A model generated the notes under the pieces. The model had not been told where the DNA came from. It ran no database searches and worked only from the letters and a program-made list of their open reading frames with translations. A program made the translations under genes and the position numbers. DNA of 64,000 bases, from NCBI GenBank assembly GCA_902629585.1, contig CACORI010000002.1, positions 1 through 64,000 on the forward strand, in the 5' to 3' direction. Position 1 is the first letter of the stretch. Every line of letters begins with the position of its first letter. Positions 4,356 through 8,472 of the stretch are shown piece by piece. The DNA is from an uncultured Pelagibacteraceae bacterium. GTDB taxonomy: Bacteria; Pseudomonadota; Alphaproteobacteria; Pelagibacterales; Pelagibacteraceae.

Positions 4356-4946
4356 TTGAAAAATTATTTTAAGCCTGCAGTATTTTTAATATCACTTTGG
4401 CCAATATATATAATCTCTTATCAAATATTTTATAATGAACTTGGACCAGAGCCAGTAGATAGGATCATAAATCATTTTGGAGAATGGACTTTGATATTTA
4501 TTTTTATAACACTTTCGATGTCACCTCTTAAAAAAATAACAAAATCATCAGAATGGATTAAATTTAGAAGAATGCTTGGATTATTTGCTTTTTTTTACGC
4601 CTCAATACACATGTTAAGTTATGTTGGGCTTGATTACAGATTTGATTTTGAGCCATTGATTGATGATGTTCTAAAAAAGAAATTTGTATTTATTGGATTT
4701 TCAGCATGGCTATTGCTAATACCACTTGCATTAACATCCTCTGATAAAATGGTAAGATTATTAAAACATAATTGGAAAAAATTACATAAATTGATTTATG
4801 TAATATCAATATTTGGCGTACTACATTTTATTTGGTTATCAAAAACTATATACTTTAAACCTCTGATTTTTTTGATAATTCTTATTGTTCTATTATTATT
4901 TCGTATAAAATTTAATAAATCATCTATTATTAGTAATAAGAACTAA
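4356..4946 (+). CDS. msrQ: heme-binding membrane subunit MsrQ of the methionine sulfoxide reductase system
   Basis: A 196-residue integral membrane protein of the ferric-reductase-like domain family (YedZ) that passes quinol-pool electrons to MsrP. Five to six hydrophobic segments are visible. Candidate heme-ligand histidines are in ASIHMLSY and in the HNWKKLHKLIY...VLHFIW region. The start is TTG at 4356, the only plausible initiation codon near the N-terminus. The 3' end runs 27 bp into the convergent XdhC-domain gene, so the stop codons are buried in each other's coding sequence. Confidence 0.92.
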   Translation: MKNYFKPAVFLISLWPIYIISYQIFYNELGPEPVDRIINHFGEWTLIFIFITLSMSPLKKITKSSEWIKFRRMLGLFAFFYASIHMLSYVGLDYRFDFEPLIDDVLKKKFVFIGFSAWLLLIPLALTSSDKMVRLLKHNWKKLHKLIYVISIFGVLHFIWLSKTIYFKPLIFLIILIVLLLFRIKFNKSSIISNKN

Positions 4947-5600
4947 TTGTGAAATAATAGATAAAGCTATTTCAGATGCTGACTTACCACCTAATTTGAT
5001 TCCAATAGGACCATGAATTGAATCTATTTGTTCGTTAGAATAACCAGCTTCTTTTAATCTATCACATCTACTAGAGTGAGTTTTTTTACTTCCTAAAGCT
5101 CCGATATAATAAAATCTTCTGTCGAGAGCATGTTTAAGTGCAGGATCATCTATTTTGGGATCGTGTGTTAATGCTATCAAAGCTGTTGACTCATTTGTTT
5201 CTAATTCTTTGAAAGCTTCTTCTGGCCATTTATTTATTATATTTACATTAGGAAATCTTTTTTCAGATGCAAAGTAACCTCTGGGATCAATAATATGAAT
5301 TTCAAAATTCAAGTTTTTCGCATAATCAACTAAATATTGAGCTATATGGACTGCCCCAACTATAATAATTTTGATAGGTCTTACAAATGTTTCAACAAAT
5401 AGGTTTGAATTATTTATTATTCCATTTTTTTTACTTTCACAAAAATCATTAATTTGTTTTGAGTATTTTTCTAATTTTTCATTTAATGGTAAATCTTTTT
5501 CAAATATTTCAGTCTCACCAGTGGAAAGATCAGTAATAATTGAAAATTTAAAATGTTTTTTTTTGTTTTCTATAATTTTTTTTAAAGTTTCAATTTTCAT
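4920..5600 (-). CDS. XdhC/CoxI family protein, C-terminal (Rossmann) half as a separate gene
   Basis: A 226-residue protein matching the C-terminal XdhC domain: a Rossmann-like nucleotide fold beginning at IIIVGAVHIAQYLVDYA (near residue 77), then DPRGYFASEKRF, LTHDPKIDDPAL, YIGALGSKKTHSSR and the C-terminal GGKSASEIALSI. XdhC proteins protect and deliver sulfurated Moco to xanthine-dehydrogenase/CO-dehydrogenase-type molybdenum hydroxylases. Here the protein lacks the N-terminal CoxI domain, which is encoded by the upstream gene with a 4-bp overlap (ATGA). The molybdenum hydroxylase it would serve is not in this window. Confidence 0.85.
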   Translation of the reverse strand: MKIETLKKIIENKKKHFKFSIITDLSTGETEIFEKDLPLNEKLEKYSKQINDFCESKKNGIINNSNLFVETFVRPIKIIIVGAVHIAQYLVDYAKNLNFEIHIIDPRGYFASEKRFPNVNIINKWPEEAFKELETNESTALIALTHDPKIDDPALKHALDRRFYYIGALGSKKTHSSRCDRLKEAGYSNEQIDSIHGPIGIKLGGKSASEIALSIISQLVLITNNR

Positions 5601-5929
5601 GATTTTATTTGTTCGATAAAAACTGCTATTTCACCACCACATGCAAGACCAATTTCCCAAGCTTTTTCGTTTGAAACTTTAAATTCTATTTTCTTAAAAG
5701 GCTGATCATTCTTTAATAGCTCAATACATTCACTCACAACTGATGATTCTACACACCCTCCAGAAATTGAACCTGAAAAATCTCCTTTTTCATTTACAAT
5801 CATTCTACTTCCAGTTTGTCTTGGGGATGATCCCCATGTTTGAATAACAGTTACTAGGGCAACCTTTTGATTAGTTTGCACCCAATCATATGCCTCTTCC
5901 AAAATTTTTTCATCGAAAGGATTTATCAT
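5597..5929 (-). CDS. XdhC/CoxI family protein, N-terminal half as a separate gene
   Basis: A 110-residue protein corresponding to the N-terminal XdhC_CoxI domain: TWGSSPRQTGSRMIV near residues 31-45, then GSISGGCVESSVV, which holds the conserved cysteine thought to handle Moco, and LACGGEIAVFIE at the end. It overlaps the gene for the C-terminal half by 4 bp, so the pair is probably produced stoichiometrically and works as one two-subunit XdhC. Split versions occur in other bacteria; I cannot tell whether this is a secondary split. Confidence 0.85.
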   Translation of the reverse strand: MINPFDEKILEEAYDWVQTNQKVALVTVIQTWGSSPRQTGSRMIVNEKGDFSGSISGGCVESSVVSECIELLKNDQPFKKIEFKVSNEKAWEIGLACGGEIAVFIEQIKS

Positions 5930-5972: not shown

Positions 5973-6320
5973 TTAATTGAGAGTTGTTTTTTCAGGTATG
6001 CAAATCTCTGATCTAGTCAAAAATCTTCTGCCTGTTCCATTATCAAGAGAGAACATTCCACCCATGCCTTCCACACAGTCAATTATAAGATCTGTATTTT
6101 TCCAAGCTTGATGCTGTGTTTCACTTATATAAAATGGAACTCCACCAATTTCACCTATCATAACATCATCTTGACCTACTTGATATTCTTTAGCAGGATA
6201 GCACATCGGTGCACTTCCATCGCAACATCCACCTGATTGATGAAATAATAGTTCTTTACCGTGATTTTTTTTAAGTTCCTCAATTAAATCTAATGCTGAT
6301 GGAGTCGCTGTAACTTTCAT
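5973..6320 (-). CDS. DUF779 family protein (aldehyde-dehydrogenase-associated)
   Basis: A 115-residue protein matching DUF779: MKVTATPSALDLI at the start, the cysteine-rich HQSGGCCDGSAPMC block, GEIGGVPFYIS, LIIDCVEGMGGMFSLDNG and RRFLTRS. The family is usually encoded beside ExaC/AldB-type aldehyde dehydrogenases, as here, but has no proven biochemical function known to me. I chose the ATG at 6320 because family members start at this point. A GTG at 6353 extends the frame by 11 residues but would put a strong inverted repeat (6328-6352) into coding sequence. It is probably co-transcribed with the dehydrogenase upstream. Confidence 0.85.
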   Translation of the reverse strand: MKVTATPSALDLIEELKKNHGKELLFHQSGGCCDGSAPMCYPAKEYQVGQDDVMIGEIGGVPFYISETQHQAWKNTDLIIDCVEGMGGMFSLDNGTGRRFLTRSEICIPEKTTLN

Positions 6321-6327
6321 GTTTATA

Positions 6328-6352
6328 TGGCCCGTAAATTTATTACGGGCCA
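6328..6352 (-). repeat. perfect 10-bp inverted repeat between aldehyde dehydrogenase and DUF779 genes
   Basis: Bases 6328-6337 (TGGCCCGTAA) and 6343-6352 (TTACGGGCCA) are perfect reverse complements around a 5-base loop. The stem is far richer in G+C than its surroundings. In the minus-strand mRNA it would form a stable hairpin 14 bases after the dehydrogenase stop and just before the DUF779 start. There is no T-run after it, so it is not a textbook terminator. It may be an attenuator, an mRNA 3'-end stabiliser or a translation-lowering hairpin. Confidence 0.7.
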
Positions 6353-6366
6353 CTATAATATATCTT

Positions 6367-7917
6367 TTAAAAGAAGCCTAATTTTTTCTCACTGTAAGAC
6401 ACGTGTAAATTCTTAACTTGTCTATAGTGGTTTAGCATCATTTTATGTGTTTCTCTTCCGATACCAGATTGTTTGTATCCGCCAAATGCCGCATGCGCTG
6501 GATAAGCGTGATAACAGTTTGTCCAAACTCTACCTGCTTCAATAGCTCTACCCATTCTGTATGCAATGTTTCCATTTCTAGTCCAAACTCCGGCACCTAA
6601 ACCATAAAGAGTATCATTAGCAATTTTTAATGCTTCTGCCTCATCTTTAAACTTAGTAACTGATACAACTGGTCCAAAAATTTCTTCTTGGAATATTCTC
6701 ATTGAATTATTACCTTCAAAAATAGTTGGTTCAATATAGTTTCCTTTTTCTAAACCACTATTTACTTTGGCAACATTTCCACCACATAGAACTTTCGCAC
6801 CTTCTTTCTTACCTAAATCTAGATAAGATTTGATTTTTTCCATTTGTTCTACAGATGCTTGAGCACCAATCATAGTTTCCATTTTTAGAGGATTGTCTTG
6901 TTTTACAGCTTTTGTTCTAGCGATTGCCTTCTCCATAAATTTATCATAGATCGACTCTTGCACTAGTACTCTACTTGGACAAGTACAAACTTCACCTTGG
7001 TTAAGAGTAAACATAGCAAAACCTTCTAAACATTTGTCAAAGAAATCATCATCTTGTGCCATGACGTCTTCAAAGAAAATGTTTGGAGATTTTCCCCCAA
7101 GCTCTAAAGTTATAGGAATTAAGTTTTGAGATGCATATTGCATAATCAAACGACCAGTAGTTGTTTCACCAGTAAAAGCAATTTTCTTAATTCTTTTTGA
7201 TGAAGCTAATGGTTTTCCTGCCTCTAAACCAAAACCACATACAACGTTAACAACTCCTGGAGGTAATAAATCTCCTATTAATTCCATTAATAACATAATA
7301 GAAGCTGGAGTTTGTTCAGCTGGTTTCAATACAACACAGTTACCTGCAGCTAATGCTGGAGCAAGCTTCCATGTAGCCATTAAGAGAGGAAAATTCCAAG
7401 GTATAATTTGTCCAACTACACCTAATGGTTCTGGTATATGGTAAGAATATTCGCTATTGCTAATTTCTGCCACAGACCCTTCTTCAGCTCTTATTACACC
7501 TGCAAAATACCTCCAATGATCAACTACTAAAGGTAAATCTGCAGCCATACATTCTCTTATTGGCTTTCCATTATCTAAACATTCAGCTGTAGCTAATAAA
7601 TTTAAATTCTTTTCAATTACATCAGCTATTTTAAGAAGAATGTTAGATCTTTCTGTAATAGAAGTTTTGCCCCATGTCGGAAAAGCTGCATGAGCAGCAT
7701 CCAAAGCTGCATCTACATCTTTTGCATCCGACCTTGCAATTGAACAAATCACCTCATTGTTAATTGGTGTAACGTTGTCAAAATATTTTCCTGACTTAGG
7801 TTCGACAAACTTTCCATTTATATAATTTCCATATTTTGACTTATATGGAAATGGTACTTTTAAGTGAGACGTATCCAACAAAGGAGACGACGCACTTTTT
7901 ATTGTTTCTGTACTCAT
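6367..7917 (-). CDS. NAD(P)-dependent aldehyde dehydrogenase (ExaC/AldB type)
   Basis: A 516-residue soluble aldehyde dehydrogenase that oxidises aldehydes such as acetaldehyde. It shows [21 protein letters not shown], the general-base glutamate in LELGGKSPN, and the catalytic cysteine in [12 protein letters not shown], the form typical of the ExaC/AldB group. The C-terminus has [12 protein letters not shown] start it at 7917 because a strong Shine-Dalgarno (GAGGAG, 7925-7931) lies 7 bases upstream and this gives the normal family length. The frame stays open upstream for another 64 codons of lysine-rich sequence (see 7918-8109). DUF779 downstream supports the assignment; the physiological substrate is not known. 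Confidence 0.93.
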
Positions 7918-8109
7918 TTTTTTTACTCCTCTTGTTTTTATAGTTTTTAACTTATTATTTTTTCTAGATTTCTTAGAACGTTTCTTAGTCGCAGACTTTT
8001 TTGTCCCAACTTTTCTTTTCGTTTTAACTTTTTTTCTAGATGATTTGACCAATTTAGTTTTTTTCTTTTTGGTCTTTGGCTTTGCTTTTTTTTTCTTTTT
8101 AGTAGCCAT
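7918..8109 (-). CDS. lysine-rich in-frame N-terminal extension (or short basic protein) ahead of the aldehyde dehydrogenase
   Basis: Sixty-four codons from an ATG at 8109 run in frame and without a stop into the aldehyde dehydrogenase. The encoded sequence is extremely basic ([19 protein letters not shown]..., ending TRGVKK), like the tails of histone H1-like DNA-binding proteins. Two readings are possible: a fusion protein of 580 residues with a basic tail, or unused/alternative coding, since the dehydrogenase has its own strong Shine-Dalgarno at the junction. No Shine-Dalgarno is visible before 8109. I cannot decide from sequence. Confidence 0.45.
7925..7931 (-). promoter_or_regulatory. internal Shine-Dalgarno deciding the aldehyde dehydrogenase start
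   Basis: On the minus strand this reads GAGGAGT, 7 bases before the ATG at 7917. Strong Shine-Dalgarno matches are rare in this window, so it argues that ribosomes initiate here rather than only at the upstream ATG at 8109. Confidence 0.7.
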
Positions 8110-8226
8110 AAATATATTAAACAAACATAAGTAGTTTGTGTCTATTTGTAATAATTATTATTTTCTACTTATAATTGTATAAATACTATATCTTGTGCTT
8201 ATAAAATAATTCTTTAATATTTTTTT

Positions 8227-8472
8227 ATGAATGAAAAAAATAAAATTGAAATTCAATCTGCCACGTTTGAAAGATTGCTAAAGCATTTAGACGAAAGAAA
8301 AGACGTTCAAAATATTGATCTTATGAACCTTGCTAATTTTTGTCGTAACTGTTTATCTAGATGGTACAGAGAAGAAGCTGAAAAAAAAGGTATTTCAATA
8401 TCTGATCCTGAGGCTAGAGAGCATATTTATGGAATGCCTTATTCAGAATGGAAAGAAAAATATCAAAAATAA
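8227..8472 (+). CDS. DUF1244 family protein
   Basis: An 81-residue protein that is almost entirely one DUF1244 domain: a helical N-terminus, the conserved NFCRNCLSRWYREEA block (two cysteines, residues 38 and 41), then EAREHIYGMPYSEWKEKYQ. The family is widespread in proteobacteria, with no function I can name. It is divergent from the dehydrogenase gene, and its stop codon directly abuts that of moaB on the other strand. Confidence 0.9.
   Translation: MNEKNKIEIQSATFERLLKHLDERKDVQNIDLMNLANFCRNCLSRWYREEAEKKGISISDPEAREHIYGMPYSEWKEKYQK

Follow-up and report, generated by a model that had tools for sequence, protein, structure and literature searches.

The window, by which we mean the entire 64,000-nucleotide stretch of DNA analyzed here, comes from a SAR11-like genome (1.07 Mb in 39 contigs), and the named loci nearest to the locus studied are those of Pelagibacteraceae. 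Its minus strand encodes an ExaC-like aldehyde dehydrogenase (ALDH) of 516 residues at positions 6367–7917, with its own ATG at 7917 and a stop codon at 6369–6367. ALDHs are oligomeric enzymes that oxidize reactive aldehydes. The protein matched Pfam Aldedh (PF00171) at 536.9 bits (cut-off 23) over positions 1–460 of the 461-position profile, which places it in this superfamily, and scored 892.1 bits against the NCBIfam ExaC equivalog model (NF050026), just below the curated cut-off of 900; we therefore call it ExaC-like rather than ExaC. Asn239, Glu336, Cys375, and Cys377 were invariant among 32 aligned sequences, and we take Asn239, Glu336, and Cys375/Cys377 to be the catalytic asparagine, glutamate, and cysteine of the ALDH family. 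Five relatives of the enzyme were present in a viral collection, at 43–49% identity or as short pieces at 79%.

Upstream of the enzyme and in frame with it lies a Lys/Arg-rich N-terminal tail of 64 codons (7918–8109, minus strand). From an ATG at 8109, the tail runs without a stop codon down to 7918 and into the ATG at 7917, and the whole open frame ends at the enzyme stop codon. A sequence-only reading of this DNA had described such a stop-free basic stretch joined to an ALDH, and it is real. The wording "almost pure" Lys/Arg/Ser/Thr was a little strong, as these residues make up 48 of the 64 (30 Lys, 5 Arg, 8 Thr, and 5 Ser); Asp and Glu are absent, and the net charge is +35. The long form has 580 residues, a pI of 9.6, and a net charge of +34, and the 516-residue short form has a pI of 6.8 and is approximately neutral. 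When the 192 nucleotides were shuffled with dinucleotides preserved, the tail frame was stop-free in 18 of 5000 shuffles. Stop-free segments of 64 codons with at least 30 Lys/Arg began at 23 of 127,618 positions across all six frames of the window, all of them at the tail locus. The tail was also said to be histone-like, a likeness that proved to be one of composition: the window tail matched no Pfam or NCBIfam model up to an E value of 10, histone-H1-like and other basic families included, and one tail of a second type (type II, below) gave weak matches alone (best E 0.026, under the cut-off). In a structure model of moderate overall quality (mean pLDDT 63), the tail had a pLDDT of ~30 and lacked secondary structure.

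Profile matches identified the neighboring genes. A DUF779 gene (5973–6353, minus strand) lies downstream of the enzyme, as it does 3' of the enzyme in 134 of 134 SAR11 loci, and a divergent DUF1244 gene (8227–8472, plus strand) bounds the promoter region upstream. Farther downstream, an XdhC-like maturation gene (4920–5929, minus strand) is split into two ORFs that overlap at ATGA, an N-terminal XdhC_CoxI part (5597–5929) and a Rossmann part (4920–5600); neither half occurred in the available flanking DNA of 14 further SAR11 loci (L036–L048 and L084).

Start signals of the tail and the enzyme

We entered 139 SAR11 loci (L006–L048, L084, and L116–L210) and counted 134, excluding two with no anchor (L124 and L210) and three cut by contig ends (L016, L019, and L021), although the last two of these retain the end of a tail; 53 stretches from matches that had no locus were added so that the window's genus, unusual frame lengths, and a few outgroups would be represented. 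The tail was present in 85 of the 134 loci (82 distinct sequences) and absent in 49, counts that include one place in G282 twice (L139 and L205) and in which other genomes may be duplicated by named contigs. All 85 tails were joined to the enzyme in frame, an open frame and an ATG being part of the definition of a tail. Tails had 37–76 residues, with 44% Lys, 9% Arg, and 17 acidic residues among 5087. They fell into two types, type I (58 loci, the window's type) and type II (27 loci), whose profiles matched with a probability of 2% when compared, and the tails of L047 and L191 look intermediate.

A promoter-like element precedes the tail ATG. In the window, a –35-like hexamer (TAGACA, 8139–8144, minus strand) and a –10-like hexamer (TTTAAT, 8116–8121, minus strand) are separated by 17 bp; the latter, a candidate by consensus match and conservation that differs from the consensus TATAAT, ends 6 nt before the tail ATG. 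A strict promoter pattern followed by N5–7 and ATG matched the window once only, at this position. By the sigma-70 spacing rule, a –10 box ending ~6 nt upstream puts the transcript start at the ATG. Among the 58 type I loci, the spacing between the TAGACA-like and TTTAAT-like elements was 17 bp in 49, and the –10-like element ended 5–6 nt before the ATG in 50, a distance from which we infer that these loci may produce leaderless mRNA. As expected of a leaderless gene, the tail starts with an AUG that lacks a Shine-Dalgarno sequence (the ATG, in 85 of 85 loci, is given by definition). In type II loci, spacing was 17 bp in 24 of 27 and the distance from the –10-like box to the ATG was 13–15 nt in 23 of 27, which would leave a very short leader. 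A similar promoter-like pair preceded 39 of 49 untailed genes, at 23–31 nt (36 genes) or 71 nt (3 genes) before the enzyme ATG, a spacing that would leave space for a normal leader with a Shine-Dalgarno sequence.

Inside the tail codons, 8 nt before the enzyme ATG at 7917, lies AGAGGAG (7926–7932, minus strand). This is the strong Shine-Dalgarno sequence (GAGGAG) that the sequence-only reading had assigned to the enzyme, and it is kept across SAR11. A Shine-Dalgarno interaction of –5 kcal/mol or better was found at the junction in 79 of 82 distinct tails and at the enzyme ATG in 49 of 49 untailed genes, at 1.0% of 4021 other in-frame tail positions, and at none of 82 tail ATGs; 3 of 82 tail ATGs had a core motif within the preceding 18 nt. 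The junction exceptions comprised 3 of 82 tails with an interaction weaker than –5 kcal/mol and 2 without the core motif. At the level of sequence, the locus has two in-frame starts, each with its own signal, promoter-like geometry at ATG 8109 and AGAGGAG at ATG 7917.

Because the tail frame and the internal Shine-Dalgarno sequence are both kept across SAR11, the best reading is that one locus makes two forms, as had been suggested for the window; the in-frame tail and internal start stand, and the two proteins are predicted. In the explanation that we consider moderately probable, a single gene with two starts yields a leaderless long form and, from the Shine-Dalgarno sequence, the ordinary enzyme, and the tail acts as a polyanion anchor. 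Transcription from a promoter with its –10 box ~6 nt before the tail ATG would give an mRNA beginning at or very near this ATG. Ribosomes taking the 5'-terminal AUG would make the long enzyme, those binding the internal GAGGAG would make the ordinary short enzyme, and mixed ALDH oligomers would differ in how many of these strongly positive tails they bear. Within this explanation, the tail is disordered and owes its retention to its charge, not to its precise sequence. That charge suggests anchoring to RNA or DNA in the first place and to anionic membranes in the second; our preference for nucleic acid rests on the absence of hydrophobic stretches from the tail and on the damage that aldehydes do to nucleic acids. 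An anchored share of the aldehyde-oxidizing activity would then sit beside aldehyde-sensitive nucleic acid.

Selection on the tail frame and rival explanations

Several features of tail divergence bear on whether the tail is translated. First, among codons with single differences in 33 close pairs, 89 changes were synonymous compared to 66.5 expected if the same base changes were placed randomly in the tail. Second, changes from Lys/Arg to acidic residues numbered 4 in these tails compared to 12.3 expected, and changes to stop codons 0 compared to 11.9 expected, a difference that is partly built in as tails were defined as open. Third, exchanges between Lys/Arg and other residues were commoner than expected (57 versus 44.2) and Lys-Arg exchanges showed no clear excess (26 versus 20.5), and single tail positions are therefore loosely held. 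Fourth, dN/dS was 0.45 for the tail versus 0.02 for the enzyme body, at similar dS (0.251 and 0.241), for 38 pairs chosen on the enzyme body (choosing pairs on tail distance biases tail divergence low). Finally, net charge stayed between +19 and +39 (median +34). The substitutions fit a translated frame, and taken together with the charge range and dN/dS they indicate that charge and frame are kept and the sequence only loosely so.

The main rival explanation, which we judge unlikely, makes the tail a translated leader whose reading opens or blocks the internal Shine-Dalgarno sequence, with the short enzyme as the working product and the long form as a by-product. Loose conservation of the tail sequence fits such a role. 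The 5' region of the gene in the window also folded better than all 200 shuffles (z = –3.1), and in 59 of 85 tailed and 19 of 49 untailed loci the Shine-Dalgarno sequence was predicted to pair with early enzyme codons ~43 nt downstream more than under a synonymous null; because these loci are related to one another, the excess in tailed loci is only suggestive of translational coupling. However, a leader would not need to avoid acidic residues or to keep its net charge, and regulatory leaders usually stop before the enzyme, whereas the tail frame always continues into it. The pairing region in the window spans 7860–7932 (minus strand).

We find it less likely still that the long form alone is made and that the internal ATG and GAGGAG are leftovers of an older untailed gene or mere codons. 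The tail frame is indeed always open, and after synonymous resampling the junction Shine-Dalgarno sequence was stronger than the resampled mean in 40 of 82 tails, so it gains no strength from the choice of synonymous codons. It is nevertheless kept although the amino acids it encodes vary: the last six tail residues were of 29 kinds, nearly all with codons spelling GGA or GAG, and glycine, whose GGA codons form the Shine-Dalgarno sequence, is almost confined there (88 of 492 of these residues versus 25 of 4513 elsewhere in the tail). The lack of a comparably strong sequence at the tail ATG (0 of 82) also argues against a long form alone.

An untranslated A-rich leader with a frame open by chance is very improbable. 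The DNA is A-rich, and 7 of 82 tails were open in frame +1 as well, but the other two frames contained means of 3.2 and 9.4 stops compared to the 0 that define the tail frame, and synonymous changes are in excess, acidic residues are avoided, and the ATG is constant. The shuffles, stop avoidance, and pattern of codon changes led us to reject chance as the source of the open frame.

Distribution of tailed genes

By origin, tails were found in 76 of 96 loci from the window's genus (its own genome included), in the single g9 locus, and in 8 of 14 named contigs. None occurred in 2 g12 loci, 1 g5 locus, or 20 g4 loci; most matches from genus g4 lay outside the fetched set, and no listed g4 frame exceeded 550 codons. 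Enzyme frames in five genomes of another family had 512–513 codons and thus no tail, and none of 66 loci outside SAR11 had a Lys/Arg-rich extension (highest fraction 0.25). Because the tail is missing outside SAR11, in the other family, and in g4, g12, and g5, the untailed gene is most likely the older state. The simplest reading of the start signals is that the tail is a coding sequence set between the promoter and an old, retained ribosome-binding site.

Relatives with stops or frameshifts in the basic region, which the sequence-only reading had named as evidence against its proposal, did not appear: the tail was whole and in frame or it was absent. Where it was absent in the window's genus (20 loci), no 30-residue stretch with at least 40% Lys/Arg was present in any frame within 350 nt upstream. 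Such stretches occurred in 24 of 49 untailed loci overall, all from g4 or named contigs, and the five inspected (L037–L039, L043, and L045) look like out-of-frame readings of a neighboring gene. The alternative raised for the window, in which the tail is, or once was, an independent short basic protein that lost its stop codon, is scarcely credible, for although its composition resembles that of small basic proteins, the two tail-type profiles, each searched against 149 genomes of the genus, matched 35 and 13 genomes once each in frames of 552–597 codons, all 48 matches were joined to the enzyme and none was a stand-alone tail gene (the window's own genome matched in one place only), the tail was in frame in every tailed locus, and untailed relatives of the same genus held no relic of such a gene.

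Parsimony placed 15 changes of the tail trait on an enzyme-body tree, with at least 12 changes on well-supported branches, and the tail has therefore been repeatedly gained, lost, or swapped. This number of changes, together with its absence from 49 of 134 loci, means that the tail is dispensable. For example, tailed L171 and L177 are sisters of untailed L028 and L172–L174, and their promoter regions differ too. Together, the promoter and tail resemble a cassette that can be exchanged. The upstream neighbor varies among loci (a divergent homocysteine methyltransferase-like gene, DUF1244, or an EamA transporter), as does the promoter type. Untailed L022, L024, and L025, which are closely related to tailed L023, have an unusually long leader (–10-like box 71 nt upstream of the ATG) that may be a remnant of a lost tail.

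The proposal of a single gene with two starts can be extended, tentatively, to one that we regard as possible: the 5' leader of the SAR11 ALDH mRNA may have been converted into a protein module. Promoter and tail would form a cassette that makes a leaderless/Shine-Dalgarno pair of a leadered gene and is gained, lost, or exchanged among close relatives above a near-unchanged enzyme, and the balance of the two initiation modes would set the share of enzyme tied to nucleic acid or membrane and hence its location.

Significance and known systems

SAR11 bacteria rank among the ocean's most abundant cells and have very small genomes with little regulation. If the two-start reading is true, choosing the form of an enzyme at translation initiation would be a cheap way of placing it in the cell, and a strongly positively charged tail could attach it to DNA, RNA, or membranes if the long form is made. 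Close relatives with and without the tail provide a natural set in which the question is directly testable. Gene callers may choose either start of a tailed ALDH, and because trypsin cleaves after Lys and Arg, a tail would be expected to be digested away and missed in ordinary proteomics.

We found no report in the open-access literature of a lysine-rich tail on an ALDH from SAR11 or other bacteria. The nearest structures to the enzyme part are those of ExaC acetaldehyde dehydrogenase (NF050026; chains 9koi and 9fm9), which match over nearly its whole length; unlike the long form, they have no counterpart of the tail, and the matches start at long-form residue 87–88.

Individual elements of the arrangement have precedents. 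First, IncC of plasmid RK2, a ParA-family protein, is made as IncC1 and IncC2 from two in-frame starts in one gene, and its long form, like that of the tailed ALDH, has a disordered N-terminal extension (PMC8481139). This likeness covers the two starts and the extension. IncC is a partitioning ATPase with an extension of 105 residues (PMC8481139), whereas the ALDH is a metabolic enzyme. Second, mycobacterial FtsK carries a lineage-specific, positively charged, disordered N-terminal extension (nFtsK) on a conserved protein, and this extension binds anionic phospholipids (PMC13277299). FtsK differs in not being a small-molecule metabolic enzyme, and its abstract mentions no second internal start (PMC13277299). 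Third, leaderless initiation, which has been reviewed (PMC9031893), is represented among alphaproteobacteria by Sinorhizobium meliloti, in which 171 transcript starts coincide with the first base of an AUG (PMC3616915). The same start position is predicted from the promoter-like geometry at the tail ATG; unlike those mRNAs, the ALDH mRNA would use its leaderless start for a long form and an internal Shine-Dalgarno sequence for a second form. Precedents thus exist for dual starts and for basic tails separately, and we found no report of the two combined on an ALDH; here they would serve a metabolic enzyme through a predicted pairing of a leaderless start with a Shine-Dalgarno start.
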